The notes beneath the pieces are model-generated. The model made no database searches and was not told the DNA's origin. It saw only the letters and a program-made list of their open reading frames with translations. A DNA stretch of 64,000 nt from the NCBI GenBank assembly GCA_003615045.1, contig ML014140.1, positions 62,001 through 126,000 on the forward strand, written 5' to 3'. This DNA comes from Caulochytrium protostelioides. Taxonomy: Eukaryota > Chytridiomycota > Caulochytriomycetes > Caulochytriales > Caulochytriaceae. The position numbers were made by a program, and so were the translations under genes. Shown here in pieces: positions 7,301-39,150 of the stretch; positions within the stretch are counted from its first letter, which is position 1, and each line of letters begins with the position of its first letter.

Positions 7301-8889
7301 GCCGTCGGATGCATCGAGGACAGCGACGGAAACAGCGGGGACCGCCCGACATCCAGCCGGCACAGGCGCCACATGTCGAGCAGCAGATGGAACTTGAAGT
7401 GGTTCTTGCCGTGCAAGCGCCGCAGGTACAGACGCGCGAGGTAGTGCTCGATGCCGATGTGCAGCCAGCGGTCGGCCCACGTCTTGGGCGTGATCACGAG
7501 ATACAGCCACTGGGCGATGCACGCGCGGCTGACGACCTCATAGAAGGCATAGAAGCCGTCGATGCTGTTCAGGCGCCGCAGGAACCGCTCGTCGAGCAAG
7601 CAGAGCCCGGCGTGGCTAATCATGGGCGCGGACAGGCGCGGCAAAAAGCAGAGCTGCAGCCGCGGGAACGGGAACGCGTACGACGTGTACAGCTCCGCCC
7701 ACTCCCAGACGCCGTGCATCAGGTTGGCGGCGAGCTCCATCTCCCGCTCACGGCCACGCAACGCGTACGCGTGGCCGAAGTGCCGGCGGCTGCGGACCTG
7801 CGCATGGCCGGGCCGCGGCTGCAGCGACGAGAAGCCCCACGGATGCGTCGCGATCGTGTGGAGCCGCTCGGGCCGCACGGCCGTGATGTTGCTGTGCCGC
7901 GGGAACGTCGTCGCGGCGAGAGGCCCGATCAGCAGCCCGATATCGCCGGCGCGGACCTGCATCTGCGACTCGAACGTATACACGTCGACGCGCGCCCGGT
8001 CGGCGGTCGAGGCGCCCGACGCGCGCCCCGACGGCGCCGACCGACCGAGCAAAGCGTCCCGGGGCACCGTATGCGTCGAGAACGGCGCCCCCAGCGAGGA
8101 CAGCACTTCCCAGGGCGGTCCGTCGTCGTCTTCGTCGTCATCGTCGCCACCCGCGTGAGGCCCGCGGTGCGGCACGACGATCTGCAAGCGCCACGGACAC
8201 CGCGCGAACTGGCTCGGAGTGTCGGGATACGTGGGAAGCCACGCGGGCTGGGCGCGCTGCCCGTGCACCAGGTACAGTAGGTCGGCTGCGGGCGGGTCGC
8301 CGCCGGCGCTGCGACCATTCCCCGCCGGCCGGGTCTGGGCAAAGACATAGTCGGGGTTGGTGCCGGGCGCAGTGAACTCGATGCGCGCCGTGATGGTGAG
8401 CAGACTGCGGACGTCGAAGCCGGCTTGGCCCGAGCCATCGGGCCCCGGGAGCAGCGACGGCGGCGTATGGATGACGAGCGGCACGGCGTTCGTATAGAGC
8501 CGCTGCGACAGGTGGTCCTTCAGCTGCGGGACGTCGTAGGCGGGGCATGCAAAGACATCCGGGTCGTGGTGGTCCCAGCGCGCGTCGACGTCGTGGACCT
8601 GCACATGCCGGATCTGCAGGTGCGGCGCAGCCAGCACGATCGTCTCGGGCAGCTGCACCGCGTCCTCGTTCAGCTCGAGCACGATCTCCAGCGTGCCGTG
8701 CACACAGCGCCGCCGGAAATCGGGCACCAGGAACACTTTCTGCTGCGACGGCCACAGCCGCGTCGCGGTCTCGCCACTGCTGCCGCCACCGCCGCCGCCG
8801 CTCGCGGTACCGCCGCCGCCACCGCCGCCGCGGCCGGTGGGTGTGTCACTAGGCGGCATGTCGCCCAGCAGGTCGTCGTCCATGGTCAT
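1372..8889 (-). CDS. TAF2: TFIID subunit TAF2 with five C-terminal bromodomains
   Basis: One uninterrupted 2505-residue frame. Residues ~48-700 carry the TAF2 aminopeptidase-like fold, beginning with a beta-rich segment (KVFLVPDFRRRCVHGTLEI). Near residue ~455, where M1 peptidases have HExxH, the sequence reads VSRACIAQWLY, so it is a non-catalytic TAF2 and not a peptidase. Residues ~880-1400 are the helical TAF2 solenoid with Ala/Ser/Gly inserts. Five bromodomains follow at about 1475-1575, 1750-1840, 1880-1956, 2000-2083 and 2163-2233; each has the Pro-(M/V)-Asp-Leu type ZA-loop element or a variant and the acetyl-lysine-binding Asn (YNQPGT, FNPPGT, YNNKGT, FNPEPH, YNRPGT). The tail has an SPSR repeat, an acidic patch, KKHKKHH and a basic C-terminus. 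Within TFIID it would contact core-promoter DNA and, here, acetylated histones. TAF2 of budding yeast and animals lacks these bromodomains. Confidence 0.93.
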   Translation of the reverse strand: MTMDDDLLGDMPPSDTPTGRGGGGGGGTASGGGGGGSSGETATRLWPSQQKVFLVPDFRRRCVHGTLEIVLELNEDAVQLPETIVLAAPHLQIRHVQVHDVDARWDHHDPDVFACPAYDVPQLKDHLSQRLYTNAVPLVIHTPPSLLPGPDGSGQAGFDVRSLLTITARIEFTAPGTNPDYVFAQTRPAGNGRSAGGDPPAADLLYLVHGQRAQPAWLPTYPDTPSQFARCPWRLQIVVPHRGPHAGGDDDDEDDDGPPWEVLSSLGAPFSTHTVPRDALLGRSAPSGRASGASTADRARVDVYTFESQMQVRAGDIGLLIGPLAATTFPRHSNITAVRPERLHTIATHPWGFSSLQPRPGHAQVRSRRHFGHAYALRGREREMELAANLMHGVWEWAELYTSYAFPFPRLQLCFLPRLSAPMISHAGLCLLDERFLRRLNSIDGFYAFYEVVSRACIAQWLYLVITPKTWADRWLHIGIEHYLARLYLRRLHGKNHFKFHLLLDMWRLCRLDVGRSPLFPSLSSMHPTAPPPPPDAAGALVPPLFTSHQWPPAAVIIDYSVARGLDPPLDALSMDSEFLALKSMIVVYMLDRHLGPGQFQKLMTQLCLGETQGELAQGLSTHGLLRAARKLTNKASLGRFADQWIYRAGCPIFSFHHSLNRKRAMLEVQFAQSNTSDPTLNGTKFGGLFLFRVHEPDGVFDTEVSIEDAMQQFDLVYHTKARRNRRKAVLPAAAAAANRNRKRGDGDGAGHDDGHDDAEADGGAATGPGSSGAPGSTATAAGAATAASSAATATAGVASPAASSSPSAPAAIVQWVNLDPDLDWCCLKHYDLPDFVWCNQLHKDRSVQAQLEALEAMRGQEPSKLSHAAILTSLASDWVYPLVHTYAWQVLAEQTTHAAQLEAAVRHLVASTSLHGHGGERVTLPPLHADTPADRPVIYLPPTLSLDRADQFIVVKAAARALSFVRLSEPRNEWADLAMPYGAQHAAPVLVMAFLLDAIAHDASTASTASTVTTAPAPTADGSSSSGHGNGNGNGSSGGAVPISDADWMAEMIVALGRCFIPIAKYDSPIQAANVLIGFSRQTNAALSGTAGPQTAALLPGASASASAAAAAGSASGSTPLPLMDEPVETFEIGPGSPPLTEGEEGEDDEDMDDAPPPPPPDHRAERRFKAWFGHAKQVLATLASIETMRPRDPTQPWAIKLAILQAHLMWMLHGLIPLDYATFLKLLHPTTDVAVRCFAFDAVLLLNGLFHENIAAGLVRLMLDARGCPVFAQHAAQTMAAYLTLLSVSDRPPSEPPLASMAPTAGRGGVPSSADMDGTAAAGAAGVRDGPFGHDDPASAGGGLAKDAAAARPKVAATERPHLSSVWLTRIISAAGLQKWQMIQQVFAKHNGYLIQQMWRVAQQTTAARAVQSSLVRMLELLEPLVATLREEAQRQQMENEVGRLKLRLPSFSALMKDEDRRDASSLPGDAQIAAHPAHTPRVQAVLAAIVDRLKNHGASALFMLPVDVAFAPGYLDLVKHPMDLSTAARKVAAGQYATVADFLADIHQIWANCLTYNQPGTPVYRQGQKMQQFMVADVLPQARPFLQQAVMDDADEMAADGARGTDSAAVTSLPPAAADGAALQPASLPLHDGALGDRAHSPAAVGLPAASTAASGAAAAAPALVPSPAAAMATAATAPALAPAPAVKGRKSAAARPPGATPPARKSTKAAAAATGTTLPAAGAVVPTTPAAAAPSSGSVSTAATSATSGPFDVEVARELIWDIAKQPQSFWFHQPIDPVADGVPTYLETIKHPMDLRTLKLRVEQGAYTQQAAFYDDFLRIFDNALLFNPPGTDVAVDASRLRDRLVSQAQLPRDTLLVRRPGPRLPADAYRRLDRALARIELKIPESHAFFFPVPPLHVDYYRLIKQPVDLCTIRHRLDAHEYASLSDLQDDLKRMCQNAMRYNNKGTLIYAHAMKLQALAMKPVTPPAAKPAGKPAGKQGSKPAAPPKMNRAIVRKALLRIRSHPTSVAFHHPVDPIALNIPHYTDIITQPMDLGTMLDRLDRGFYDTQRDQIMPDFDRIVANAITFNPEPHPVVTAAKTMRQLFRADLEAAVSSAAGAAAKPRAAPTPASDPSASAAAPSADGTAASTAPTAVSTAAAAAAGATTPTFPALAAIAPLLQQFSKDKNALIFLEPVDLTVYTDYLSFVAQPIAVSDMLDTLEQQRYTTFRDFDADMNRMLANCAAYNRPGTIGHKMGAAAGKVYRRLRNAYLKSMPAPPHEMALILAAEPAAASTASAATDAAVKQEPDVTATTAAGEEEPSVLDRPDNGDDPAQASLPPRSPSRSPSRSPSRSPPQPEALADASPGYAAANGVVDTAVDAGADPVPDAPARSSAARSGLLSDVEIEMDSDSAEAAVDDGVADVDVDVHTDTDADGTGRPGVHGAPSRKKHKKHHRALHPASLAGDPAAVEPATAADPAAAATSPAASTPAASTPTASLPNAASAPRPTLKLKFKLTPKP

Positions 8890-16456: not shown

Positions 16457-19400
16457 TTACCAGAAGGCACACCAGCCAATGTAGCACTGGCACAGGTTCT
16501 GGAGCGACGTCGCTTGGAGAATGAGCTTCTGGACCTGCGAGGGAACGTCGAGCGGCGCATTGGCTTTGAAGTCGCGGCCCGTCAGTTTGTTTTGGACGCG
16601 GTTGATGACCAGCAGCGCACGCGTGTTCAGGCCCTCGGGTTTGATAGCCGCCGCCGCCGCTGCGGCCGCGGCTGCAGCCGCAGCGGCCGCCGCCGCCGCT
16701 GCTGCGGCTTCCATCTCCTTGGCACCTTCCAGCTTCTTGCCCGAAGCGGCGACGCGCTGGGCAGCGGCAGCGGCGGCGCCCTGGATGGCGCCCGCGGAGG
16801 GCATCGGCGGCGGCGGTGGCACGGCGATCTGGGCGGGCGCGGCGGCAGGCGCGGCGGTCTGGGCGGGACTCGGGTTGGTCATGAGACGCCAGTTGATGAG
16901 GGGGTCGTAGACGAAGGCCTCGAGGACGGCCATGAGGGAGTCCTTGTTCTCGCGCAGAACGCGCATGACGTTCTCGCAGGTGATGCGGTAGTTGCCCTCG
17001 ATGCCGCTGACTTCCATCGCGTTGATGAGCATGCGGGTGAGGCGGAAGGGAATCTTTTCGGGGAACTTCTCGCGGTGCATGGCGACCTCGAAGCAGTCGC
17101 CGAAGTCGATATGGACGACCTTGCCCGTCAGGCGGTCCAGCATCAGGTTCGACGGGTGCCGGTCGCCGAGGCCGAGGATGTAGCCGACCATCGACATCAG
17201 AGCGAGCGAGCGCGTGTAGTTGGTGCGGCGGTCGAGCCAGAACTCGGAGTTTTTGCTTTTCAACCAGAGCACTTTGTACAGGTCCTGGCCGGTCGTGTTT
17301 TCGAGCGCAGACTCGAAGACCTCGACCTTCTGGAGCAAGGTGAGGTTGTCGTAGTCGGGCGCCATCTGCAGCATGAGCCGGTGCTCGATGTTGAGCGGGA
17401 TTTTGCGGCTCTCGCGGTAGTCGCGGATCAGCGTGTGCAGCGTGTCCGTGTTGGGCACCCAGCCAATGAGCCCCGAGTTGGGCGACAGTGGGATCACGGG
17501 GTAGCGGTGGATGCTGAGGTGGCGCTTGAACGTCTCGGCATCGGCCGTCAGCAGCGTGTTGACGAGACCAAAAAGCTGCATGACGCGCTCGTCCTGGCGG
17601 ATATCCTCGTGACCCTTCAGCAGGTACGGATAGTCCTTGCCGTCGGAGCCCTTGATGGTCATGCGGCGCGGGCGCTGCTTCGAGGTCATGACTGTCAGCG
17701 TCGACACGAACGACGCGATTCGGATGATCGGCTCGTTGCTGCGGTACGTGCCGGGCACCGCGAGCTCGAGATCCTTGGCGGCGAGCAGGCGCGGCGACAC
17801 GTACTGCAGCTCGAGCGTCGTCAGCTGCGGCAGCTGCTTGTTGATCTTGCGGAACACCTGGTAGTACAGATTCCACGCAGCGTTGAGGTCGTTGGCGTTC
17901 TCGGTGCGCTTGTACTTGCGGCACCACTCGAGCGCCTCGTTCAAGTCGCGCCCAAACGCCTGCGCAAAACTGATCTCCCGCAGCGTCTCGGGCCCGCGCT
18001 CCAGCATGTGGTGCAGCGGCTCGAGCGTGGCGAACATGCCCTCGCAGTCGTGGTCGCCGAACCAGAGGCGCGAGGCTTCCTCGAGCCCCTCGGCCCACAT
18101 CTCGTGCCACAGGATCGCGACGCGGATCAGCTCCTGCGAGACCAGCAGCGCTTGGTCCACGAGCGTTGCCGAATGGTTGCGCATCTTTTCGATGATACTC
18201 AGCGCGGCCTTCTTGCGCGGAATCGACTGCGACTTGGACGCGACCGTCAGCGAGTACACGAGCGCCTGTGGATGCTCTTTGCCGACCTCAATCAGCAGGC
18301 CGTGGATCAGCTTGCGCACGTACGGGCTCGGCGTATGGATACGGGCAATGATCTGGGGGATGACCTGGAGCCACGTGTCGATGCTCACGTTGTTGAAGCC
18401 CTCCGAGATCGCGACATTGACGTCCTGCTGGTAGCCATACTTGAACCACAGGGTCAGCAGGCGCAGCGTGTCCTGGAGCGAGTTGCCCTTCGACAGCGCG
18501 ACCGATCGGAAGAAGCCCTGCACCGAGGGCACCACGTGGGCCACGAGCACCTGCATCGGAATCGTCTCGTGGATCTTCTCGTAATAGCTCAGCGCTTCAA
18601 AGTTGGCAAATGCCCACGCGTGCCACGCCTTGTACCACTGCCGGTCGCACACATACGCAAGTGAGTACGACTGAAGAATGCTCGGGATGTTGTCTTCGTT
18701 CAGCTCCTCCGCCAGCGCCGTCTGCCACTCGCCCAGCCGCAAGTAGCATCGCGCCAGCAGCTTGATGGCCGCCGAGCGGTCCATCAGGTTCATCGTCGCG
18801 CTCGAGGCCGTCGTGCCGAACCCAGCATCCGCGGCCGACGCCATCGACCCGCCGCCCAGCGCGTTCGCGTTCGCAATGCCGTTCGTCACGAGCGCGGTCG
18901 CGGGCGAGATGAGTGCGCTGTGGTTCAGCGCGCCGCCGGCCTGGTTGACCGTCATACTGACGCCCCACTTCTGCATCATGAGGCGCGTGAACTCGCGGAG
19001 CTGCGAGAGCGCGCCCTCGCGGTTGCCCGCGGCCCACAGGTGCTTCAGGCACCCGTAGATGACGTGCGGCGCGTTCTGCTGTAGGTTGAGGCGGTTAAAG
19101 TCGACGTCGCGTGTCGCCGCGTCCGGTGGCTGGTTGAGCAGCCCGCACAAAGTTTTGTAGGCCAGCGTCATGCGGTTCCCCTTGCGGCACAAGCTAGCGA
19201 ACTTCATGCGGATCGCCATGTCTTCTTTTGGCGAGATGACGAGCGCGCGGACCTTGAGGATGCGCTGCCAGACTTCGACATTGCGCTGGCAGCCATACAA
19301 GCGCTTCATCCACGTCTGGCGGATGTTGGCCTGGCGGTGCGGCTGATCATACAGCTGTTTGTAGGCAATGATCTCCTCAAGCTCGGCCAGCATCTGGATG

Positions 19401-22400
19401 CGGACCACCACGGCATACGCGCGGTTGTAGGACTCGCCCACGAGGGCCATCAGCTCGGTGTTCAGCAGGTCGCGCGTCTTGTCGATGTAGGCCGCGGACT
19501 GCGGGAAGAGGTTGCGATGCAGTGCGAGAATGGCCTGGAAGAAGGCGCTGTCAGGGCTCTCGTGCTTCATGACGGTTATGTATTCGTCCATCAGGTCCCA
19601 TTCCTGAAGACCCCAGGCGCCCGCCGTCGCGAGCGGCGCGATCGCGCGCTTCACATCGTCCGTCGCAGTAGCCCAGCGCTCCTGCGCCAGACGCGTCAGT
19701 GCTTCCCATTCGCCGAGGTTGTGCAAGCAGCGCATGCGGCCCAGCAACGCTTCGATGCTCGCCGGGTCCTCAGCGGCCTTGCGCTCGTAGGCGGCCAGCC
19801 CGTCCTCCCAGCGGTGCAGCTTCTCGAACCACGACTCCTTCAGTTCCAGGGTCGACTCGTGGTTTTGCTGGGCATACGTGAGGATCCCGATGGCGGAATC
19901 GGGCTGCTGGAGCTGGTTGTTAATCGAGATCAGGTTTTCGATGGTCGATGCCAGCGGCTCCGAGATGAACTCAAGCTCCTTGTAGTGCAGGGCTTTCGCG
20001 TACGCGTGGCACTTCGCCGCATAGCGCCCGAGCATGCGGATATCGATAGGCAGCGCCTTGTCGTCGTGCTCCATAAACTCTGCCAGGTTGAGGAGCATCT
20101 GCAAGATCTCAGGCGGGATATTGGGCGAGGTCAGTGCCGTCTCGAGCGAGCGGACGAGCGCGTCCTGGAACTGGTCATACAGCTCCGACCAGCACGAAAC
20201 GAATGCGGCATTGAAGAGCTCGCGCGCAAGCGGATAGTGGCCCGCAGCGACAGTGGCGCACGCGCGGAGCGCGTGCGACGGGGACTCCTTGAGCAACTCA
20301 ACGCTGAAACGCCGGATCCACTCCGCCCAGTCTTCGCGTGTCGAGCGCTGCGACGCCTCCCAGGCCTTTTGAAGATTCGGCTGGTTGACAGGCAGCTTTT
20401 TGGCCCCGCCCTCCGTCGGTGCCGGCGTATGGCTCTCGGCCGTCTCGTAGAGATCGCGCTCGAAATCCGTGTCCGGCGGCAAGGGCTGGTGGTGCAGGAG
20501 CTTGCTGACGAGCATCTCATACTTGGCGTGCGGCACGTTGTGGTTGCGCAGCAAGGTGCGGTTGATCATCGGGATAAAGATCACAAAATCTGTGCCCATT
20601 TGGTAGATCAGCGCACAGATGGTGTTTAGCGCCGGGCCCTTGAGGTCGACGGCCTGCTGGCTCGTGGTGAGCGCGGCCGGACCGGACGGCATCACCGAGG
20701 GCGCCATGAGCAAGCGAACCAAGGGGTGGATGATACGCGAGGCTTGGTCGCTGAAGTTGACCTTGTGGCAGAGCTGCGCCACCGTCGTGATGGCCTGCTT
20801 CCGGATCGGGAACGGCAAGTCCGCGCGTTCGAAGAGCCGCGTCATTTGGGGCACGACGAGGTGGAGGTACTCCTCGAGGTTGTTGCCGAAGACAAGCAAG
20901 GCATGCAACGTCCGCTGGGTGAGCTGCTTGCGCTCCGAAACGTCAGCCTCGAGCGAGGGCAGGATCTGCGGGAGCAGCGATGACAAGTAAATTTTGAACT
21001 CGCCGTCTAGGGCAGTTGCGATCGCTTCGATCAGCGAGAGAATGGTCAACTGGATGTTGCTGTTGGAGCTCCAGTACTCAGAGATCAGCTTGAAGATCTC
21101 GGGCAGGTAGTTGCGGATGTGCTCCTTGACCACCGAGACCAGCGTGCTGAGCTGCTTGAAGTGGAACTCGAGGATCGCGATCGGGCAGTTGTACATCATG
21201 TTGATGAACGACGGCATGATGCGCGGCAGGAACGGCACGCACTTGAGACCCAGCGTTTCGAAGATGAACATGAAGGCCTGGATCACGTTCGCGTGGTGAT
21301 TGGACAGGCTGGGGTCGTGCAGAATCTTCATGAGCGCGTTAATCGCGACGGTCGGGTAGTAGTCATCGTGTGGCGGCCCGATCATGAGCATGGGCATCTG
21401 GTCGTCGGCGCCGCCGCTGACGACCGACGTCTCAAGCAGGTTCTGCGAGCTGATCTTGTGCTTGTACGGATCCAACGCGCCGAGGATACCCATCGTCTTG
21501 ACGGTTTCGCGGCACAGCGAGACGCTCGACTCGGTCTTGAGGATACTGATGAGCACATTGAGCAGGTTCGGGTACTTGAGATACGGCTCGATGACCCATC
21601 CGGTGTTGGAGGCGAGCAGGCCGAGGGTGCGCAGCGCGGCCTCCCGCTTCGCGGGGCTGCTCTGGTCCTGAATGGTGTCCATGATCATGGGCATCAGCCG
21701 GTCGAGATGGACCCGCAGGTCTTCACAGCCCACGTGGCTCAGCTCGCCGATCGCGATCAGCACGAGCGACGCCACCGAGGGCGATGGGTCTTTGACCTTC
21801 GCCATCAGCACCTTCAGGATCGGGTCAACGTAGGGTTTGATGAGGCGCTGGGTCGATGCGATCAGGAAACTCAGTAGGCGCGCAGATTCCTCCTTTTGGC
21901 GCGTGACGGCCGAGTACTCAAGCTCCGTAAGCAGCTGAATGAGGGTCTTGCGGAGCGCGGGCATGACATACGCCGGGTTGTACGTCGAGAGGCGCCCGAT
22001 AATGATCATAGCGAGCTCGCGAATCGCATAGACTTCGTCGTTGAGGGCGATGAACAGGCTGCGCAGGTGCTCGGCCTGCGCGAGGTAGTGGTCGAACCGC
22101 TCGTCGAAGTGTGCCATGACACTCTGCCGGATCGAGGCCTCCTGATCCGTAAGCGCGACCGTCAGCAGCTTCTGCAGGATCTCGTCCAAAATCGCAAGCG
22201 CATGCGCGCTGTTCTGGTAGCAGATCGGGTCACGGACGAGCAGCTCGCAGCACGTGACCGCCGCCGACTTGCGCACGTCCGCCACCTCGTCCTCGAGGTA
22301 CACGGCCGCGCACTCGCGCAGCAGCTCGTGGAGCGAGTGGCCGGCGAAGTTAAAAGTGCTAACGATCTTGAGGGCGAGCACGATCGTCTCGACGTCGCGC

Positions 22401-24028
22401 ACTGTCCCCGCGGGGCCGTCCTTCATTGCGCTGCCCACGACGCCCGGGGGCGGCCCGGCGGCCGAGAGGGCCGAGCCCGTGCGGCCGCCGTGCGGATGCA
22501 TGCCCGGCTGCCGGTAGGCGTGGCCAAAGAGGACCTGCGAGCACATCACGAGCAGGCGGTCGCAGATATTGGGCGCCAGCGGCGGGATATGGATCGACAT
22601 GTCGACGAGGGCCTGGTGCAGCGGCTCGGTGAGGGACCCTGCGAACATGAGCTCCAGCAGCTCGTGCACGTACTTGGTGAGCGCGGGGCCGACCGCGACG
22701 GAGAGCATCCGGATGCACTGATAGATGGGCGGCTCGGTCATAGCGCGCATACGGCCCTTGAGGGAGAGACCTTCCTTGATGTTCTGCAAAATGTTCTCCA
22801 GGTAGGGCCCCATGGCGCTGCCCATCGCGATGGCAATCTTGCCGATGGCCGTGAACGCGACCGCGCGCTCGCGCTCCTTCTTGAGCTGGAGCAGCAAGTA
22901 CGCCATCGTGCCGCTGAGGTAGGAGGAGCCGAACATGACGGGGTCGAAGTTGGCAATGACGGGTGTCAGCAAGATCACGGTCTTGCGGATAAGCGCGTCA
23001 CGGTGGTCCTTGTAGCGGAGGATCATCTCCATGATTTCCTTGCGATCGACCTTCTTGTCCATGTTCAGCAGAACCTTACCGGTATGCGAGAGCAGCTCCT
23101 GCAGCGCGAGCAGAGACCCGTGGATGGTGTCGACACTGGACATGCGCAGCCCCTTCTGGATCTCGCTAAAGAACTTGAGGTACCACTGCTGGCGCAGCCG
23201 GCTCTCGCGCTGGTGCACGAGCTCGAGCGAGGCCGCGAGGGCCTCGGCGCCGCCTTCGCGAATATTAGCTTTGGGGTCGTGCAGCGCGACCCAGATGAGG
23301 TCCAGGATCTGCGAGACGAACGCATAGATGAGGGTCGGCGCGCTGATCGCCAGCTCGCGGAGCACCAGCACGGCGGCTAGCCGCCGCGACTCGTGGCGGT
23401 CGCCCTGGAGCCACTCGAGGGCGGTCTTGACCTCATGCTCCACGAACTCGGGCGTCAGCGCGCCGCCCGGGATCGCGAGCTTCCCGAGCGCTTTGCTCGC
23501 CATCACCGCAATCTGGGGGTCCGTGCCCGGCAGCACGCTGTGCAGGTAATTCGCGAATCGCGTGATCTTCATGGCGTTTTCGTCGCCTTCGAGGTCGATC
23601 AGCCGCTCAATGGCGACGATGCCGCCCATCTTGTCCGCATTGTCGGCGCTCGTGATGAGTTTCCAGATGCGCTGGTTGACGTCGTTGTTGAGCTTGGCAA
23701 AGTTCTCGCCGGACAGCTCGCGGGCCGAGCTGCCCACAAACTCGCGCAGCTCATTGGCCGCGCGGTTCCGAACATCTTCGCTCCTGGAATCACGTGGTCG
23801 GTCATCGTATCCGCCCAGCAACCCGAGGGATCACCCAATCCAGGCAGAAGAAAATCAGACGATGAGCATCTGTACGTTCGCGGAGACTCAGCCAAAACAG
23901 ACCAGGCGCACGCACGCCACATCAGCCATCCGGGAACGCCCGAACGGGGTCCCTTCGGTCATACGAGCAACTTACTTATTGCGCAGATCATTAAAGATCT
24001 GCAAGAGCTCAGGCATCCCGGCGCTCAT
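16457..24028 (-). CDS. TOR: TOR phosphatidylinositol-3-kinase-related protein kinase
   Basis: Proposed exons on the reverse strand: 24028-23976 (53 nt, MSAGMPELLQIFNDLRN) and 23783-16457, with a 192-nt intron (donor GTAAGTTG, acceptor GATTCCAG). The junction restores the conserved NDLRNKSEDVRNRAANEL start of TOR kinases. Length is about 2459 residues, usual for TOR. Order: HEAT solenoid (1-1250), FAT (1270-1850), FRB (1902-1996, ELIRVAILWHEMW and EEASRLWFG), kinase (2065-2325) with GDRHPSNLM near 2225 and HIDFGD near 2243, a 20-residue-class poly-Ala insert near 2375-2395, and a complete FATC ending CQCYIGWCAFW. The Ser in EEASR that is mutated in rapamycin-resistant TORs is intact, so FKBP12-rapamycin binding is expected. 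It is the catalytic core of TORC1/TORC2 for nutrient-controlled growth. No second TOR is in the window. Confidence 0.97.
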
Positions 24029-25334
24029 GGCGGCGTCGGCCGATCCCGAACGGGGCGCGTACAGACCGGCGGGGCGGCGACGGCGTCGTTAGGCGGCCAG
24101 CGGACGCAGCGCCACGTGGGCGCAGCGCAGCGATGGAAGAAACGCGGGACGGCGGGGACGGCGACGAGAGCGGTCAGGCGGCGACCATCGCCTGGCAGCA
24201 GCGCGCCTAGACAGTGCACAGGAGGTGCACAGACCGTGCACACGGCACTCACCCGATGCCGGCGCGTCGGGTGTTCTGCGGGTCTCGTGGACGTGCAGCG
24301 CCGACGGCAGGGCCGACGCGTCTCTATTACGCGTGGTCGCGGCACCCACGGCAGCGGGTCCCGTCCGGGCCACGCGGTGGCGGCGCGGCGTCTCCGGATC
24401 GAGAGCGACCCGAGATGGCGGTGATCGGCCGGGGTCGACGTTGGGTGGCGACCGTCGCTCGATCGCTGGTCAGACGCTAGTCAACAGAGGAAGGCGGAAT
24501 CCGCCGCAGCAATGAGCACTGATGCGTGACAATAAGCCGCAGCGAGGCGCTGCGCTGCAAAGACAATCGGTCCACGTTGTCTGGAAGCCGAACACGGATA
24601 GGGTGAATGGAAAAAGGCCCCGGCTGCAACAACGATGCGATACAATACGATGCGATACGGTGGCTGAGGATCCGGCCAACAATCAGGGCCCATGGACAGC
24701 GAGCGGCATCGCACCCGGCGTGAGTGGCGGGCGAAGGCAACCGCACGAAGCCCAAACCTGCGACCCGGCGACCCGGCGACCCGGCGACCACGCGACCACG
24801 CGACCACGCGGTCCCTGTTCAATCGTCGCTACGACGTCCCCAACGATCCGCCGCGCGTTGGTCGCCAGAGCGGAAGGTCCGCCACGTGTCGGCGACGCGC
24901 GCGCGCGGCTGTGCTGTGGCGACGGGACACGCGGACGCACGGCACGGCTCGCTCCTCGCGAGCGGCGCTAAAGCAGCGGGAGTCGCGCGATCCTGCCTCG
25001 GCCGGCCCGCGCGTGGCCATGGGTGCGACGCGATGCCGCGCTGCGCTGCGCTGCGCTGCGTGCCAGCCGCACCAAGGAGCGCTCTGGGACGGCGCATGCG
25101 GGCGACGGCGCGACGGCGACCGCGGGCCGGAGGAGGGCCGGGGCAGAAGGCGGGCACCCAGCCGCCGCAGCCCGCCACAGCAACAGGCGGGCTTGGCCGC
25201 CTCTTGCACGATTCTTCGTCTTGCCGAATCATCGATCGAACACCGGAAGCCCACGGCATGGTGATCCTTGGGAGCGATCTTGTCACAACATCGACTGGGT
25301 GGACACATTCTATATTGAGTTTCACGCGGTCGTT
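24029..25334. other. intergenic, TOR promoter side
   Basis: About 1.3 kb upstream of TOR. It contains GTGCACA-type elements at about 24213-24245, CGATACAAT/ACGATGCG repeats at about 24636-24660, an array of CGACCCGG then CGACCACG units at about 24765-24815, and a GCTGC repeat at about 25038-25062. No credible gene seen. Confidence 0.5.
24763..24815 (+). repeat. short tandem array (GACCCGGC then GACCACGC octamers)
   Basis: About three units of a GACCCGGC octamer are followed by about three units of GACCACGC. The change of unit inside one array suggests it expanded twice. The array is not coding in any believable frame. Confidence 0.65.
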
Positions 25335-25414
25335 CATATACCGACCCTATGCGCATACCAATCTTCGGTGGTGCCCCCCGGGGGATCCCCCCGCGAAGCA
25401 GACGCGCATTCGGT
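25335..25414 (-). repeat. Fanzor copy A, 3' flank shared with copy B
   Basis: Read on the reverse strand, the ~80 bases after the copy A stop resemble the same interval beside copy B (28305-28390): ACCGAAT, a GGGGGATCC core, a GCACCA block, a GGTATG-like block and GGGTCGGT. The core at 25374-25392 is a G-run/GATCC/C-run that folds on itself. In TnpB/Fanzor elements the guide-RNA scaffold is encoded here, at the 3' end of the gene. Function is inferred; only the shared sequence and the palindrome are seen. Confidence 0.5.
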
Positions 25415-26353
25415 TCAGTATCGGATGATGTTGCCGACCACGGACCGCAACCTGGTTTGCTCCGGGTTGCGGCACAGCGCTATTGGCCTTTCGGGTAAGG
25501 CCAGGCAGCGTCGGATGTTCAACGCGGCATTGAGGCCGCGGTTCACCAACTTGCTGTGGGTCGCTTCATTGCTGGGGGTGGCTTCATACCATAGCAAGCC
25601 ACGAACCGTGGTTCTCTGGCGCCGGCGTTGGCCGGGTTTCAGGACCACCTTTGTCGGGGCATACCCTCGAGTCCTACGGACCGGGTTGGCCGGCGTCGAC
25701 GCGGTCGGGTGGGGGCCCGCCTGAAACGCGCGAGGGATCTGCACAGCCGTGGGGTCCCGGGTTGGCACCTTGGTGAGGATGCCATTCGTCTCGGCATGCA
25801 CCTGGGTCGTCCGGAACGCGTCGACCAGAACGGTGCGGAAGCGCTGGGCACACGCCTGGTACGCGCGAGCGGTTGGAATCGAGATCTTGCTCTAGCCTCC
25901 GGGGGCCAACTTGGACGCCCCCTAGGCGATCACTACTTCAGCGACGACGGGCGCCATCTCCGTGGCCGCCTCCTAGGCGACGCGGTTCATGAACTTGGCA
26001 AACACGCGTTGCTTGTCACTATACAGCCGCAGGATCTGGTGCGCCCAGCGCGGCTTCAGGAATTCGGCCCACAACGGCTCGTACGTAGCGAGCCACACCT
26101 CCAGGGAGCGGTGATGCGCGTCGAGCGCTGTGCCCTAGGAGCTCACCCCGGACCGCCGCAGCAGCAGATCTTTCAGATGGTGCTGCCACGTCTCTGACTG
26201 CTTTTGGGCGGCCTTCATGCCGACTTCCACATAGTACGGCTTCCGGCTCAGCTTCCAGCTGACGACCTGGCCTTTGGGCCCCACCATGGCCATAAAGATG
26301 TTGGTGCGGCCTGGGTCGTTCCCGATGATGCAGTAGTCATCCCGGCTCTTTGC
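25415..26353 (-). pseudogene. Fanzor (eukaryotic TnpB-like RNA-guided nuclease) remnant, copy A
   Basis: One reverse-strand frame of 313 codons from about 26353 to a TGA at 25415-25417, interrupted only by TAG codons at 26135-26137, 25973-25975, 25922-25924 and 25892-25894; there is no frameshift. It matches the nuclease half of Fanzor proteins in order: a RuvC-I motif (YCIIGNDPGRTNIF), LSRKPYYVEVG, a helical block PLWAEFLKPRWAHQILRLY, the GASKLAP..ISIPTARAY segment, TVLVDAFRTT, and a C-terminal VNRGLNAALNIRRCL (RuvC-III). The RuvC-I Asp is kept. The Glu usual in VDEFRT is Ala, and the Asp of NRDxNAA is Gly, and the zinc-ribbon cysteines are missing, so it is dead by several routes. The N-terminal half is absent: an in-frame TGA lies just upstream and I find no homologous sequence further on. 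Intact relatives are typically 500-700 residues. Confidence 0.85.
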
Positions 26354-27135
26354 TCAGTCAAAATCAAACTCAGTCAAACTCACCCAAAGATCACTCAAGT
26401 ACAACAAAACATCAACTATCTATCTTTTTGCAATAGAGATACGATACTGCTGTTCGACGGTTATCAGCGCCGTCACCCACACGTTCTGCCGATCTCCTCT
26501 GACGCACCAACGTCCGGGCTCTGCCCTCCTCATTTTCGATGATGACGAACGAAGGGCCCTGTGAGCCGCCATGGGTGGTGCTCGGGGCGGCGCCCTTCCG
26601 TGTGGCGTGGAGCCTTCGCTTCTGGTCGGAGGACCCATCGGACTCAGCGGCCAACGCCACATCGGTCGACCGTGCGGGCGACGCCGCCTTCGATGCGAAC
26701 GCATGCAGCGACGCCGCAGCGACGCCACCGGTGACACGGGCGGGCGAGCACCCAGACGCCGATCCGTCTCGCCGATCGCCGACGACCATCGAAGGCGACA
26801 TGCGCCCGACTCAGGTCGCGCCATCAGCCTGCAGCGCGGTCCGAGCCGCTCGTGCCGTTGTCGTGACGGCCGTGTGACGTGGCCGAAAAACTCCGATCGA
26901 GGTGGAAACGAACTCGCAAGAATGGAACGCCGGAGCTCCAGCGTGGCTTCGCTGGTCGTGTCATTCGATTGTCGGTTGAAATCATCCATCGTCTGCCCCG
27001 TCATAATTGCCCATCCTTGGTTCCATCGTGACGCGCCTCGTTGGCTAGCGTGCTTCTGGGAGACGCGCACCCCTCGGCGGTGCCCCTTCCATCCCAGGTG
27101 GACCCCTCAGCCCAACCCGAGTAGGGGATGCCACG
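26354..27135. other. intergenic, YJU2 promoter side
   Basis: An A/T-rich segment with repeated GACTGAGTTT-like units (26355-26395) marks the edge of the Fanzor fragment. Beyond it lies ordinary GC-rich sequence up to YJU2. Open frames of about 110-130 codons exist on both strands at 26412-26877; composition does not decide for either, and I call neither. Confidence 0.45.
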
Positions 27136-28281: not shown

Positions 28282-28304
28282 TTTATATTCACTTTACAGA
28301 ACGT

Positions 28305-28390
28305 ACCGGCCCCCCCTAACCGACCCAATACGAACACCATACCCTCCATGGTGCGCCCATGGATCCCCCACAGAGGTAGTCCGTATTCGG
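28305..28390 (-). repeat. Fanzor copy B, 3' flank with perfect hairpin
   Basis: Corresponds to the 3' flank of copy A. It contains a perfect 7-bp inverted repeat, TCCATGG-TGCGC-CCATGGA (28345-28363), at the site where copy A has its G-run/GATCC/C-run palindrome. The primary sequence of the stem differs between copies while the potential to fold is kept. A role as guide-RNA scaffold or element end is inferred. Confidence 0.5.
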
Positions 28391-28660
28391 TTCGATGTCG
28401 GATGGATTTGCCGATCTTGGGCCGCAGCAACGCTTGCCCAGGGTTGCGGCACAACGCCCTCGTTCTGACCCGTGAGGCTAGGCAACGTCGGATGTTCAAA
28501 GCGGCATTGAGGTCGCGGTTTACGAACTCGCCGTTGGCGGCTTCACACCACAGCAAACATCGGACCACGGTTCTCACACGCCGGCGCTGCTCGGGCTTCA
28601 CGACCACATCCGTCTGGGCATACACCCGGGTCCTGCGGACCCGGTTGGCAGCCGTCCGCT
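28391..28660 (-). pseudogene. Fanzor C-terminal fragment, copy B
   Basis: The reverse-strand frame contains NRVRRTRVYAQTDVVVKPEQ, then VVRCLLWCEAANGEF, then VNRDLNAALNIRRCL and RALCRNPGQALLRPKIGKSI, aligning residue for residue with the last ~100 codons of copy A. Here the RuvC-III Asp (NRD) and two cysteines (CLLWC) of the zinc ribbon are preserved, so this fragment is closer to an active ancestor than copy A. Homology stops near 28660 and everything N-terminal is missing. The frame runs on in both directions without stops but no longer resembles Fanzor. It lies about 100 bases downstream of YJU2 on the opposite strand. Confidence 0.8.
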
Positions 28661-29056
28661 CGGCGCTCTTTGCGCGATCCGCCATGAGGAAACATCTCAA
28701 CCTGCGCATGGACATGAAGTATACGCGCAGGAGCAGGTGCAGGAGCAAGTGCAGAAGCATGAGCCTGATGTTTCCGGGTGCATTAGTAACATTTGCAACG
28801 TCTTGGGACGTTTGAGCCAGCGGCAGACTGGTGGAGGACAGGCTGACAGCAACAGCTGCGCCATCTTGCGGATGCTCTTCCAGATGGGGCCCATCTGTCA
28901 AACAAACTCGCGCCGATGGACGGGGTGCTTGGGAGGGAACGTCAGGAGCTGATCTGCTGGTTTGATCTGATTTGATTTGCTCGAGTGAGCCATGAGACAA
29001 AAAAAGTGCTTCACTGCTACATACAAAACAAAAAAATCTATCGCATATTCGGAAAA
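28661..29056. other. intergenic between Fanzor copy B and AP beta 3' end
   Basis: Lower-GC sequence. A CAGGAGCAGGTGCAG-type repeat lies at about 28725-28760, and the arms CCTGCGC / GCGCAGG (about 28700-28730) could form a hairpin. A-rich runs at about 28997-29040 may serve the AP beta 3' UTR. No gene seen. Confidence 0.45.
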
Positions 29057-32000
29057 CTATATCACACCAGGCGTCGTCATCACGGCCAGCATGGCTTCGT
29101 GGTACGCCGGGATCCAATGTGGCGCGGCGGTGCGCGTCGTGATTTGCGTGGCGCCCGTCAGCGCATTCACCGTCACCTCGCTCAAAAACACTTCCGGACG
29201 GTATGACGCGAGTCGCGTCGCCATAAAGAAGAGCTGCAGCGGCTCAACCCGGCGCTGCGCGACCACGTGGCATCCGCATGCAATCAAGCGCGCCTCGATG
29301 GCCTGAACATCCCGGGTCCACGCAAGGGGCAGCGCGGCCTCCGACGCGCCGGACCCCGTGGCCGACGCGAGAGGCGCCGACGGCAACGCCGGCACCGCGA
29401 GCACCTCCGCACACAGCACGCCCACGGGACCCGTCCACGCCGCCAGCCACGCCGTCGCGTCGGGCGTGCCGTGCGCGCTCCAGTGCAGCCAGAGCGGGAT
29501 CGCGAGCGGCGCGTACGCGACGCCGGCGGACGTCCGCAGCGCGGCTTGCACGTGGTGCAGCGCTGCCGGCGGCCCCACGTCGGCTGCGGCCGTCTCGGCG
29601 CCGGGCGCGGCACCGTCGTGCAGCGCCACGACGACTGCGCCTGATGCCTGGGGCGCCAGCGGCGGCAGCGCGAGGGGCGCCCGGCTCGCCGGCGCCAGGG
29701 CGAGGACGTTCGTGTTGAGCAGGAGGCCGAAGCCGGAGAGCGTTCCGCCGCCGACGTTCTTGATGAGGAGGCGCAGGCGGCGCTGGCCGGACCGCGTCCG
29801 CGCATACCCGACGGCGAGGGCGATCCCGTGATTCGTGCCGGTGACGGGCACGAGAAGAGGCGGCGTCGCAAAGACGGGCGGGTCGTCAGAGTTCTCGAGG
29901 GCGACTGAGCGCTGAGCGTCGGGCATCAAGGATAGACGCTGCATGGCAGCCGTCGGGTGATCGGGCGACATCGAGAGGCCCAAGCTGCCGCTCGCAGCGG
30001 ACGTGGGCGGCGGCGTCGCGGCGAGCGGCATCGCGGACACGGGGCGTTGACGCGGACTCGTGGGCCCACCGCGGAGTTCGGCCAAACGGTCGTTCGATCG
30101 CGCGGCAAACGGGTCGACCAGCGCGTTCGGCGTTAAGCCTCCCAGGCTGCCGGTTCCAGACGGACCCATGCCCAGCCCCGGTGAGGCCGTCAGCCGTCCC
30201 GGCGGGCTGCTCATGGGGCTTTGGGACATAGCTTGGGGGTTCGCTTGCATGGTGGGTGTCCAGCCCGTGACATGCGGCGCCATGCCCAAGCCCATACCCA
30301 CGCCTGCGGGATGCGGCGAGGCGGACGACGATGAGGGCGACGATGCATGAGATGGAAACTGGCCGATCCGTGCGTTCGCATAGGAGGGCGGTGTGACGGC
30401 CGCACCACCCGTAGCAGGACCGGCACCGGCACCGCCACGGCCCACCATGGCCGGGCTGCCGCCCGCCGAGAGCAGCATGGTTCCTGACTGAGCACCGGTT
30501 GATTCGACCGATCCACGGGCCATGCCCGACAGCGCGAAGGGGTTAACCGGGCCATCGCTTCCCGCCAACGGCGTAAACGGTTTCAACGCGGAAGCAGCAC
30601 CGCTGCCCCCGGCGGCGCTGCCGCCGGCATCGAGATGGCTATAATAACGACTGTAGCCGCCGTCCGCATTGAGTCCGCTCGAGGTATTCAAGACGTCTTC
30701 CGATCGGCCGGCGTCCTCGGCTTCGGGTTCGTCGGGCCCAAAGAGCTGCATCAGGTCGTCCTCCAGCATCCGCGAGGCCGGACCTCCCTCAGCGGTGACG
30801 ACGCCTGCGTCGACGTGATACGGGTTAGTGGCGGGTGGCTGGGCGGCTGTTGCCGGCGCGGCCGTCGGCGAGGCCGGCAAGGCGACGGTGGACGGCGGGA
30901 CGCCGTGATAGATAAAGGCCGGCGAGTTCTGGATCTGGATCGGGCGGTAGGTGCCGTATATGCCCTTGGGCGGCTTCTGGCTGAGACTCGACAGCGTGGC
31001 GATATGCAGAATCAAGTCTTCGAGCAGCGCGGGCTCCATCGACTCGCCTTCGACGTTCATGACGGGTTTCTGCGAAAGGACAATTGCTTTCGCAGCGACC
31101 GGGTCGGTGGACAGTAGGCGCCAGTAGATAAAGCCGCGGTCGCGAATGTCGGGGTTGTCCACGTCTTCCGTACAGTGCTTCAAGATGCGGGGCAGCAAGG
31201 CCTGGCCCGCCGAGGGCCGCTTGATAAACAGCTTGACAGTCGCCGTCAAGAGGGCAAGCTGGACCTCCGCGGCGGACTCGAGGAACGTGGCAGCGAACTG
31301 ATTGAGGAGATCGCTCGCGTTATCGATGCGCTCCGCATACTGCCCAATGATCCAGATCATGGCGGCACGGGCCTCCGGCTCGTCGAGACCAGCCAGATTG
31401 TCGCAGAGCACCGCGATCATTCCTTCATAGCGGTTAGGGTACTTTCGGAAGATATCGCGAATCACGACAATGGCTTCTTGTACAATGTAGTTGACCTGTG
31501 TCTCGATCAGCCGGCGCAGGGCAGCGACGCAGCGGTCGGTGGCGAGCTCGATCTTGATGGCGATGCGGCCCAGCGTGCGGAGCGACCGGCGGGCAAAGCC
31601 GACATCGACTTCGTTGGCGTACTCTTCGACTTCCGTCAGGACCTGCTCCACATTGTAATCGTCGGTCAAGTGGAAGATGATTTCCAGCTTCGCCAACTTG
31701 ACGTAGATGGGGTCACTGTACTTGCAAAAGAAGGGCTTCGCGCCCAAACTCTTGAACATGTCTGCCTGCTTTTTGATCAGCAGCTGGATGTTCTTGAGCG
31801 CCACAAACTGGATTTCAGGCTCACTATGCAGCAGCGTGATGAGCGGCGGCTCCATCTTGGCGTAAATGCGACTGACGACCTCCTTGGCTTCGATATAGTG
31901 CGTCAGGTAGGCCAGCACACGGATGGTCGTGAGGACGATGCCAGAGTTGGCATGCTGCAGGCGCGGGACAATGCGTTCGGCCAGCTGCTCGGCGTCCGCA

Positions 32001-32973
32001 TGGCTCTGCGGAACGACAAAGAGAATGCTCTCCAAAATGTAGGCCTGGCTCCATTCTGAGGCCTCATCCAGCGCCACCAAGTACTTGCTCATCGCACTAT
32101 ACTCGACAACGAGCTGGGGCAAGTGGTCGGATCCGTCGCGTTGGTAGATTTCGGCGAGCGCGACCAAGGCGTTGGCGACCACGTTCGGGTTCTCATGAGA
32201 CAAAAGGTTGTGCAGGAGATTCAACGTTCCGCTGCTCTGGATGCGTTCGCGGTCCTGGACCCAGACTTTGGCCACGCACAGCGCGGCAGTCTTAGCGACA
32301 TACGCGTCGCTGTCCTCTAAGCACCGCGCGAGGGGTTGTTGCAGGCTATCGATGATCTGCGGCGTCTGGATCGATGCCATGGTCCGCAGTGCCAAAGCAC
32401 GGATCAACGGGTTCGGATCGGCGAGATCGCGCAAGAAGTCGCTGATCGCATCCGCGGCGAGCTGAGGTCGTGACCGCGCATAGTGAATTAAATAGAGATA
32501 GACCATCTTCTTGACTTCGAGCATCGGGATTTGGAGGCAGGCGACGACGTCCGCGAAAAGCGGGAGCATGTCGTTGCCCATCGTCATGTTGGCGACGATG
32601 CGTTTAAGCGCATTGCGCTTGCGCGTATGCTTGGCATCGCGCTTATCCGAAATCAGCTCGGCATGCAGTTCCTGCGTCTTGCCTAAATGGCCGATACCAC
32701 CATCGGATCATCATGGGGTCATTAGATCGGACCAAATGAGATCAAATCAAGAAGAGAATATCACATCGGACGGGAATGAGTGGCTTGTCAGCTTCTGGCC
32801 ATCGGGAGAAATCGTCAGCGAGTAACGCAGACCCCTGGCACGAGGACACGTCGGAGGTGAACTCTGACATTCACCCGCTTTACTCTGCTGCACATATCGC
32901 GTATGGCGCACAGAACCCATCGCACGCCCGAGGTCTTACCCTTCTGGAAGAACTGGGCATCCGTGCCCGACAT
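29057..32973 (-). CDS. AP-1/AP-2 complex beta adaptin
   Basis: Proposed exons: 32973-32940 (34 nt, MSGTDAQFFQK) and 32682-29057, with a 257-nt intron (donor GTAAGACC, acceptor GCCATTTAG). The join gives QKGKTQELHAELISDKRDAK, the expected beta-adaptin start. Total about 1219 residues, longer than the usual 700-950. Residues ~1-620 are the conserved HEAT-like trunk (VANMTMGNDMLPLFADVV, LEVKKMVYLYLIHYA, DPNPLIRALALRTMA). Residues ~620-950 form a long Gly/Ser/Pro hinge. The rest is the appendage domain (LLLNTNVLALAP, ending near MTTPGVI). Beta adaptin links cargo and clathrin on Golgi/endosome (AP-1) or plasma membrane (AP-2) vesicles; I cannot say which complex, and some lineages share one beta for both. 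The stop is TAG. Confidence 0.92.
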
Positions 32974-36069: not shown

Positions 36070-36296
36070 TCAGGTATACTCGGGCGCGCGGATCATGGTC
36101 ACAATCGCGTCTGGGTAGGCGGCGAGCAGGGCCGCAATATCGCGCGGTGTCATGCCTTCGCGCACCATAATGTCATCGGTATGGTAAGAGCCGTCAAAGT
36201 AGGGCAGCAGGCGGATCAGCAGGGCACCGATCGGCGTGACGGCCGGCACCGTGCGCATCGTTGCCGCGCCGCCCTCGCCGCCCTCGCCCGCGCCGC

Positions 36297-36327
<31 letters not shown>

Positions 36328-38049
36328 CGCACCGACGCTCCCGACGCGCGCGCCATGCGCCGTCGCGTACGGCTCATCGGACACGACGCGGCCCTGCCCG
36401 TCGGGCGTCGCGCTCCACGGCGCGCCGGGCGCCGATCGCACCGATAGCAGATGGATGCATGCCATCTCCTCGGCCGTCGCGCGCAGCGGATCGGCGAGAA
36501 TTTTGGAGCAGGTAAAGTCCTCGTCGTCGGCTGCCGCCGTCGCCGCCGGCGGCACGGCGGCCGCAGCGGCGTCTATGGGATCGGCGAGCCCGCCGTCGGC
36601 GGCCACGGCGGCGGCCGCGTGCAGGAGATCGATGGAGGACTGCTCAGTCGCGGCGGCGGCCTCGGCCTGACGTCGGGCGGCGTCGCGGACATGCCGCGCG
36701 TGCACGGCGGCGCGGAGCGGGCCCGGCAGGAGAAGATGGAGGTAGACGTGCATCTGGACGACGAGCTGGTGGCGCAGCAGATAAGTGGCGATCTCGAGGT
36801 AGATGGCGGCGGAGTCCGGGTCGGGCACGTGGGCCGTGAAGGGCTTGGGTGCGGTGAGGCGCGAGAGGAAGTCAACGAGGTCGAGCTGCGGGAAGCGAGA
36901 GAGCGCGTCAGCGGCGAGATATGCCAGCCGGTGGCGTGGAACGTCGGGCGCCACGACATAGATGTTGCGGAGTCGCACGACGGGGACGACCCACGCCGTC
37001 TGCCAGTAAACGAGGTGCGCCACGAGTTTGTAGATCTGGCCGAGCGTGCATTCCAAGGTGGTCGCGAGCGAGTCAAACGTCTGCGTCGGCGTCACGACCG
37101 AGATGAAGTGGACCAGCAAGGACGCGGCGCCCGATGGGAAATGCTTGAGCAGTTCTTCGGGATCCGACAGCAGCAGCAATGCGTGGTGGGGCTGGAGCGC
37201 CGTGTTGCTGAACCGCACCTCGGCGCCGCCGCCGCTGCCGGGCATCCCGAGCTGGCCGTCGCGCCGCGCATACTCGCCAGACGAACCGAGCATCCCGCCG
37301 CCGCCACCGCCATGGCCGTTGCCAAGGAGATGGCGCGAGGTCCCGTGGCGGGCGACATACTGGTGGTGCGCTTGGGCGAGCACGAGCCCGGGCTCGAGCC
37401 GCGTGGGTAGTGCGGCGCTGTGGCGCCCTTCGGAGGCCCATGGCACTCGCAGCGCGAGATGAATACGGTTGTTGACGAGCACGTGGGCCACGCGCCGCGC
37501 TTTGACGGCGAGAAAGACGTTCTGAAGCAGCGCTGCGAGGCCATTCGGGTCTTGTGGCCCCGACGAGGACGGCGACGCGGGAACCGGCTGGGACCGATGG
37601 CCGCCGCCCATACCTGCCGTCACCAAGCTGCTGTTGCTGCCGCCGCCATTCCCGCATGCGACGGTGCTGGGGCTGACGCCGCCGCCGCCGCCACCGCCTG
37701 GGCCGCCGTCTTCACTCGCGCGCAGGAGCACCCGCGCTTCGCGTATAATGTAGTTGCGGTGTAGCTGCTCATACTTAAGGGCATTGGTCACGCGCACAAT
37801 GACATTTTCATAGAGCATGTGGGCCTCCGCGTCAATAGATTCGCCCGCGCGTGGCTGGATCGCGCACACGAGATGGAACATGGTCAAGCCGGACGCGTGG
37901 TGGCCGCCGTCAGGCGCGCCCACGTCGGGCTCGTCGTCGCTCAGCGACCCGTACACTAGACTGCTCAGACGACGGGCGTCTGAGAGACCGGCGGGCAGCG
38001 CGTCATTCGGAGGCGGCGGCAGCGTCGTGTTGACGCCGCCGAGACCCAT

Positions 38050-38080
<31 letters not shown>

Positions 38081-39150
38081 GCCGTCGCATGAGCCCCAGC
38101 GCCTTTCTGCTGTTGCTGCTGCTGACGGCTCGTCGCACGGTCACGATCGCGATCACGGTCGCCGCCGTCCTGTCGCTCCATCTTGCGCCGCTGAACCAGC
38201 CGGGAGTAGCGCAAGCCGTGCCCCGGCCGCTCGACATTGAGCAAGGTCGGGTGCCCGACGAAGGTGATATCGTCGATCGTGAGCTGGAAGGGGCGGTCGC
38301 AGAGCGCGACTTTGGGCGAGAGGATGTTGGACAGCGCCGACGACGGGAAGCCGAGGATCATGTCGTCGCTCGGGCCGCCGCCGCCGCCGCCCGTGCTGCT
38401 GCTGCCGCCGCCGCCGCCGCCACGACCACCGCCCGTGCTGCCGCTGCTGCCGCTGCCCCCGTTGCCGCCAGCACCGCTGCCGCTACCGGGCGGCGTCAGA
38501 GAGGACACGCTCGAGGACAGGCCTGAGCGCATCGCGGCGCCGGCGAGCGGCGGCGAGGTCCGCGCCGTCAGGCCTATCACGGGATGCCCGCCGCCGCCTA
38601 GCGGCCGCTTCGTCTCCGCGTCGTGGCGCTCCTGCCCCGGATCGGAGGTCTTGTCGCTGGCGGTGCCCCCAACCGACAGCGCGCCGGGCGTGCCGGGCGC
38701 CGCGGCGCCGTGATGGCCGAGCGGCGTCCCCGGTGCATCCGTCGTGGCGACGGCGTCCGCCCCGTCCGCATGCCGCCCCGCGGCCGACGCCGCGTTCGAC
38801 GGCGGCGGTGTGGACAGCACGGGCGGTGGCGTGCCGACGCGGCCGGTATAAAGGGGATGCGCGGCTGATAGAGCCGTCTTGGGCGATCCGGCGGCGGCGG
38901 CGGCGGCGACGGCGGCGGCGGCGGCCTTGGCCGCGACATGGCGGTGCAAAGGCCGCGGCGCCGGCGACGGCGTCTGGGAGGCCGTGGAGGGGCCCGAGGC
39001 GGCGGGCCATGGCGTCGGCGTCGGCGGTGGTGGCGGCGGCGGGAGGGCGCTGTTAGCGCCGCCGCAGAGTGAGGCTTGTGGCGGGTACTGGGCGACGATT
39101 TGGTGACCTTTGCTGCTATAGCAGACGAGCATAATGGCGAGCAACGTCAT
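36070..39150 (-). CDS. NPR3: NPR3, nitrogen permease regulator-like TORC1 inhibitor
   Basis: A 1026-residue frame starting MTLLAIMLVCYSSKGHQIVAQYPP, the typical longin-type NPR3 start. Conserved blocks: ILGFPSSALSNILSPK near 263, MFHLVCAIQP near 423, EQLHRNYIIREARVLL near 470, LLLSDPEELLKHFP near 660, TLGQIYKLVAHLVYWQTAWVVPVV near 705-730, and a C-terminal winged-helix-like part (GALLIRLLPYFDGSYHTDDIMVREGM). Between them are long Gly/Ser/Pro/Ala inserts encoded by GGC/GCC triplet runs, which make it longer than most NPR3 proteins. With NPR2 and IML1 it forms SEACIT/GATOR1, the GTPase-activating complex that silences TORC1 in amino-acid shortage, at the vacuole surface. It lies about 12 kb from the TOR gene. 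No NPR2 is in the window. Confidence 0.93.

Follow-up and report, generated by a model that had tools for sequence, protein, structure and literature searches.

In the 64,000 nucleotides of Caulochytrium protostelioides DNA analyzed here (the window), the reverse-strand stretch 25312-26354 is most probably a dead, 5'-truncated remnant of a Fanzor1 element, which in its full form would be an RNA-guided nuclease element of about 2.5 kb, copied in trans from its 3' end in a Helitron2-like manner. This interpretation draws on homology and the fold of a relative, on a single clade for the placed copies, on their shared 3' and variable 5' ends, and on the loss of catalytic residues and zinc-ribbon cysteines.

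A decayed Fanzor1 copy and its relatives

An earlier interpretation made from the letters alone (the sequence-only reading) had placed a decayed Fanzor gene at 25415..26353. This frame is real, but similarity to other copies extends a little beyond it, running from 26354 to about 25312 and taking in a conserved tail of ~100 nt downstream of the TGA. In translation, the motifs GNDPGR, LSRKPYY, PLWAEFLKPRWA, SKLAP..SIPTARAY, VDAFRTT and NRGLNAALNI follow each other in one frame and in the order that had been proposed. The frame cannot be attributed to chance, because P0001, an intact metagenomic relative, aligns to it by tblastn over residues 373-628 (E = 4e-64) and because the host genome contains 168 matches to it, itself included (127 of 1139 candidates scored). 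The best non-self match has 68% identity (E = 1.4e-120).

Direct tests of the frame were negative, as Pfam returned 0 families and a PDB single-sequence search returned IscB only (best E 0.13). The significant evidence for a Fanzor identity therefore comes through relatives, which were found with the open frame of the sister copy L009 as query. This search yielded 99 proteins at E ≤ 1 (among 7991 candidates scored). Many of them are ~600 residues long and metagenomic, two belong to green algae (Tetrabaena socialis and Chlamydomonas eustigma), and P0009 carries an annotation as Caulochytrium protostelioides. Profile search and fold comparison each ranked Fanzor1 first by a wide margin, and a relative from the family matches the fold of solved Fanzor1 proteins. 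The Fanzor1 protein PpFz of Parasitella parasitica (PDB 9cf0), at 14% identity, is distant kin only. Fanzors, DNA-cutting enzymes akin to CRISPR-Cas12, have been defined by a DPG motif at RuvC-I together with an alternative RuvC-II Glu that precedes the zinc-finger position by six residues (Yoon 2023, PMC10711439; this and the other articles given by PMC number are cited from excerpts). The family shows both features: D, P and G are invariant in 36/36 relatives, and so is the alternative Glu. The window copy has kept the DPG and lost the Glu. The motif of Bao and Jurka, D-X(125,275)-[TS][TS] with a C-terminal RD, is likewise present in P0001 (D381, T549 T550, R589 D590), and the window copy has RG in place of RD near its C-terminus. 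Together, sequence profile, fold and the DPG plus alternative-Glu fingerprint support a Fanzor1 origin of the window copy. That it descends from another RuvC family (IscB, prokaryotic TnpB or Cas12) is very hard to believe; besides the IscB hit, such a descent could appeal to the shared Cas12f1-like TNB domain, which Pfam reported above cut-off in two of eight scanned relatives, both distant (P0080, P0098), but the fingerprint speaks against it, and an IscB or TnpB origin was rejected on fold and profile.

The window copy is dead and makes no working protein, since it has four internal stops, lacks the N-terminal half of the gene, as had been claimed, and has lost both the alternative Glu and the RuvC-III Asp (Table 1). 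Of the three catalytic residues only the RuvC-I Asp is kept. The proposal that the whole RuvC half is preserved thus holds for its extent and fails for its function (Glu to Ala, Asp to Gly). That the internal stops are all TAG (4/4) would suit a recoded or read-through TAG in an otherwise intact gene, an idea to which we give practically no credence: the host adaptin open reading frame (ORF; 29057-32587) terminates in TAG, and TGA and TAA also occur in other copies, which rules out recoding, while the two lost catalytic residues and the missing N-terminal half argue against an intact gene. A C-to-T bias as the source of the TAG stops was dropped after inspection by eye, as the aligned codons in L002 encode Lys, Glu, Tyr and Lys, not Gln.

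The catalytic columns are eroded across the scored host places as well, with the RuvC-I Asp present in 24/31, the alternative Glu in 31/47 and the RuvC-III Asp in 40/52 (a tally in which the two window copies are mixed in locus L032). Compared with 63 aligned stretches of other copies (L013 and L047, the same place, being counted twice), mismatches of the window copy by codon position were 17.0, 16.6 and 23.2%. Past coding constraint has left a weak trace, and decay has been mostly neutral.

Table 1 Positions, within the window, of the two Fanzor copies and of the features of the first.
Feature	Position	Strand	Remarks
5'-truncated decayed Fanzor1 element copy: RuvC half of gene and 3' tail	25312..26354	(-)	homology to other copies
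Former Fanzor reading frame	25415..26353	(-)	312 codons + TGA, four internal TAG
RuvC-I catalytic Asp of GNDPGR, kept	26315..26317	(-)	aligned to P0001 D381; invariant in 36 relatives
In-frame TAG 1	26135..26137	(-)	
In-frame TAG 2	25973..25975	(-)	
In-frame TAG 3	25922..25924	(-)	
In-frame TAG 4	25892..25894	(-)	
Alternative catalytic Glu position (DEFRTT), now Ala	25817..25819	(-)	Glu in 36/36 relatives
RuvC-III Asp position (NRD), now Gly	25535..25537	(-)	Asp in 36/36 relatives
Conserved 3' tail after stop, potential hairpin, subfamily terminus ...GTGAAACTCAATAT	25312..25414	(-)	candidate omega-RNA scaffold or terminal hairpin
Further 5'-truncated copy, shorter than the first: final ~80 codons with NRD kept, and tail	28284..28664	(-)	end 28284 placed by eye

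The sequence-only reading had also seen a zinc-ribbon end, which was not borne out. No CxxC occurs in the window frame, which has HAET at the first CxxC site and Tyr at the position of a Cys kept in 20/36 relatives, and is thus without zinc-binding cysteines. Among the 36 relatives, scored by alignment column, the first CxxC is present in one (P0098), and of the second zinc site the first Cys alone remains, in those 20. The strictly conserved Fanzor/TnpB motif has been described as including a C4 zinc finger between RuvC-II and RuvC-III (PMC3627910), and the family is therefore filed as a Fanzor variant. SpuFz1 from Spizellomyces punctatus (PDB 8gkh), in contrast, has a CCCC zinc finger (PMC10432273). 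No report of a zinc-less Fanzor clade was found in the open-licence literature searched, part of it in excerpt, and the word 'zinc' does not occur in the stored text of PMC11423790 (the Cell 2024 structure paper).

A family of 3'-anchored copies in the host genome

As the sequence-only reading had held, the element invaded this lineage: the host is a chytrid, and the family is spread in its genome. The 150 matches listed from the genome search with the window frame merge into 120 places, and the frame, tail, terminus, P0001 and 5' searches combined gave at least 198 distinct Fanzor places on 141 of 337 contigs of the 21-Mb genome (a lower bound, with pieces >1.5 kb apart counted separately). 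In a phylogenetic tree, the 40 copies for which sequence sufficed group with P0009 in a single clade (own support 0.70, parent support 0.998), sister to P0001-P0003. No copy was intact among the candidates scored: each of the 95 matches to P0001 (70/1182 candidates scored) covered, in one frame, at most ~380 of its 629 residues.

The 3' ends agree among copies. They lie about 100-125 nt past the stop and in one subfamily read ..GACCGCGTTAAACTCAATAT(A), a terminus found at 64 sites with ≤3 mismatches and at 0 in the reversed control. The 5' ends vary, so that 50 tail-bearing copies have total lengths of 212-2576 nt, three of them cut by the locus end. Sequence from the 5' side is also rare: the tail search gave 332 candidates, versus 12 and 8 for searches with the 5' region and the 5' terminus, respectively. 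Five further loci hold 5' pieces; four of them have internal deletions, and L074 is unbroken over the extent available. In the longest copies, the 5' region measures ~300 nt and in some cases contains CCTATATAAA. The fuller element accordingly measures about 2.5 kb and consists of this 5' region, which has a TATA-like box, a single Fanzor1 gene (about 620 codons, enlarged by ~45 residues inserted in what was the zinc-ribbon loop), and a tail of ~100-125 nt ending ..CAATAT(A), with other endings in other subfamilies. Such a layout has no space for a gene encoding a transposase or a reverse transcriptase.

Two stretches on different contigs, L049:1153-1614 and L050:1155-1614, are 96% identical over 462 bases, closer than most pairs, and L053 and L057 are another such pair; these pairs reflect either a recent move of copies that had been truncated before, or duplication of a segment. 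Of the 198 Fanzor places, 32 are within 3 kb of the start of a contig, where about 10 were expected, because of either assembly breaks at these repeats or their clustering; recent copies may therefore be collapsed in the assembly or absent from it. The public gene model P0009 (CXG81DRAFT_23488), to which L014 (contig C6, about 206904-207542) is the nearest copy, has a Fanzor fragment joined to ~400 residues of other sequence and is either a gene-model error or a fusion.

How the copies may have spread

We infer that a partner enzyme acting in trans would have copied the element from its 3' end and often stopped early, which would leave most copies with the tail and without variable lengths of the 5' side. 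The copying would be of the Helitron2-like rolling-circle type that was inferred for CRe-1, CRe-2 and CRe-3 of Chlamydomonas reinhardtii, where rolling-circle copying that begins at the 3' end was invoked to account for 5' truncation, internal deletions and intact 3' ends (PMC3627910). Rolling-circle copying appears most likely here because the CRe pattern of 5' truncation, internal deletions and intact 3' ends is shared. Like the Caulochytrium element, those non-autonomous Helitron2 elements carry a Fanzor1 gene without a transposase, and their copies, at 35 to 150 loci each, are mostly 5'-truncated; moreover, relatives of the Caulochytrium family occur in green algae too. The Caulochytrium family differs from CRe, which was compared by description and not by sequence, in being fungal and old, in having no intact copy found and no zinc ribbon, and in showing neither a target-site duplication signal nor a Helitron partner. 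It also differs from SPu-1, taken as the SpuFz1 element, which carries terminal inverted repeats of 33 bp along with putative TA duplications (PMC3627910), whereas no shared terminal repeats were seen here.

Further points weigh against rolling-circle copying. Flanking end words shared within a copy were not in excess (mean 5.1 versus 5.2 in shuffled pairs; 47 of 50 copies tested), whereas target-site duplications occur in 70%, 57% and 10% of CRe-1, -2 and -3 copies (PMC3627910). As the copies are old, with best matches to the window copy of about 82-86% identity, such duplications may be eroded. T enrichment upstream was mild (25.5% of 12 bases versus 20.0% background) and unlike the T-rich tetranucleotide of CRe. 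The transposase-type domain searches covered reverse transcriptase (RT), Helitron_like_N and PIF1 families. No Helitron_like_N match was found in the genome, a result that is not decisive as the control was also silent, and the PIF1 search gave two matches only and identified no partner. Finally, the 5' boundaries were set by alignment depth, so that some of the lengths are too short (L027 reaches further).

The main rival is copying of Fanzor transcripts by the reverse transcriptase of a non-long-terminal-repeat retrotransposon through target-primed reverse transcription, as in long interspersed nuclear elements (LINEs), which would anchor the 3' end and truncate the 5' end. We consider it unlikely, although it accounts for the fixed 3' and variable 5' ends and although the genome contains at least one element with endonuclease and RT (C234), as well as an RT fragment (C183:11550-11840(-), L041) that has the same strand as a Fanzor copy and lies ~0.8 kb upstream of it. 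The bases just past the tails are A/T-rich (58% versus 41% background), partly because the tail ends themselves are. Against LINE-type copying stand the internal deletions, the absence of a consistent poly-A at the tail 3' ends and the lack of a target-site duplication signal in the copies tested, which are old and have fuzzy boundaries. In addition, none of eight stretches taken from 6 of the 16 RT-hit contigs contained the tail (best E 0.008, 15 bases inside an ORF). As a separate observation, L078:2-109 (contig C94) is a reverse-oriented Fanzor fragment where the contig starts, followed within a few hundred bases by a protease/RT element of the long-terminal-repeat type.

In known Fanzors, the guide RNA derives from the 3' end of the element. 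By analogy, the protein of the living element would have been an RNA-guided DNA endonuclease with a guide RNA made from the tail and the adjacent flank. The tail can fold into nested hairpins. When a specified three-helix, 25-pair structure, derived from one of the sequences (L049), was applied to 26 tails chosen by eye from 51 and mostly from one subfamily, 86.2% of cells were paired versus 35-46% when it was slid along the alignment. Cells with a two-sided change numbered 14 versus 7.9 in shuffles, of which 5/500 reached 14, and pairs with such a change were no more frequent than in shuffles (246/500). RNAalifold found no consensus pairs in 43 of the 51 tails (8 poorly aligned ones left out) and 8 pairs in the chosen 26, results that count against the proposed guide RNA. 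Of five single folds, that of the window tail alone stood out clearly from its shuffles (z -2.71), the other four scoring between -1.29 and 1.55. A structured tail is weakly supported, and because the RNAalifold, shuffle and single-fold results are mixed, we infer the guide RNA rather than observe it.

If truncated copies with an intact tail and flank were transcribed as guide RNAs for a full-length Fanzor in trans, the over-abundance of 3' ends would represent a dispersed guide set. The tails are indeed the best-kept part of the element, and both the pairing of the three-helix structure and its cells with two-sided change, which exceed most shuffles, would fit such a use. We nevertheless regard it as highly improbable, given that no intact Fanzor was found among the P0001 matches scored, that the structure was taken from one of the tested sequences and its pairs with two-sided change do not exceed shuffles, and that four of the five single folds were not clearly better than shuffles.

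Neighboring features and implications for Fanzor biology

The second copy in the window has another tail ending and sits between a Yju2-like gene and the adaptin gene. A TAF2-like ORF at 1372-8889(-) encodes 2505 residues with five bromodomain matches as well, an unusual mix of domains if it is one gene. The genes for mTOR (16457-23821(-)) and the GATOR1 subunit NPRL3 (36070-39150(-)), which belong to one nutrient-sensing pathway, are about 12 kb apart. Rfam and tRNA scans of the window gave nothing. A viral carrier was rejected: two scans of viral contigs gave 6 and 600 pattern-matching stretches, none confirmed by tblastn, and phage records gave no match.

Fanzor1 in chytrids, represented in the searched literature by the SpuFz paper, and Fanzor1 elements with over-abundant 3' ends are already known. 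In the open-licence literature searched, we found no description of Caulochytrium Fanzors, of their expansion or of the zinc-less clade, and the excerpted Caulochytrium genome paper (PMC6784888) mentions transposable elements once, in general terms. Tentatively, the data may point to a distinct Fanzor1 clade that lacks the zinc ribbon and keeps the D-E-D catalytic residues, with members in a chytrid, green algae and many metagenomes. In Caulochytrium, one founder might have given rise to a high-copy, 3'-anchored repeat, whose truncated copies would resemble short parasites of the full-length element (or dispersed sources of guide RNA) and would be mobilized by a partner not recognizable in the genome.

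The single window copy is dead and ordinary, and the interest lies in the family. Its ~200 3'-anchored, mostly 5'-truncated remains echo the Chlamydomonas pattern in a distant host and bear on how Fanzor-only elements move. A clade of seemingly intact proteins with an invariant D-E-D and without the first CxxC also makes the role of the zinc ribbon in these nucleases directly accessible to study.
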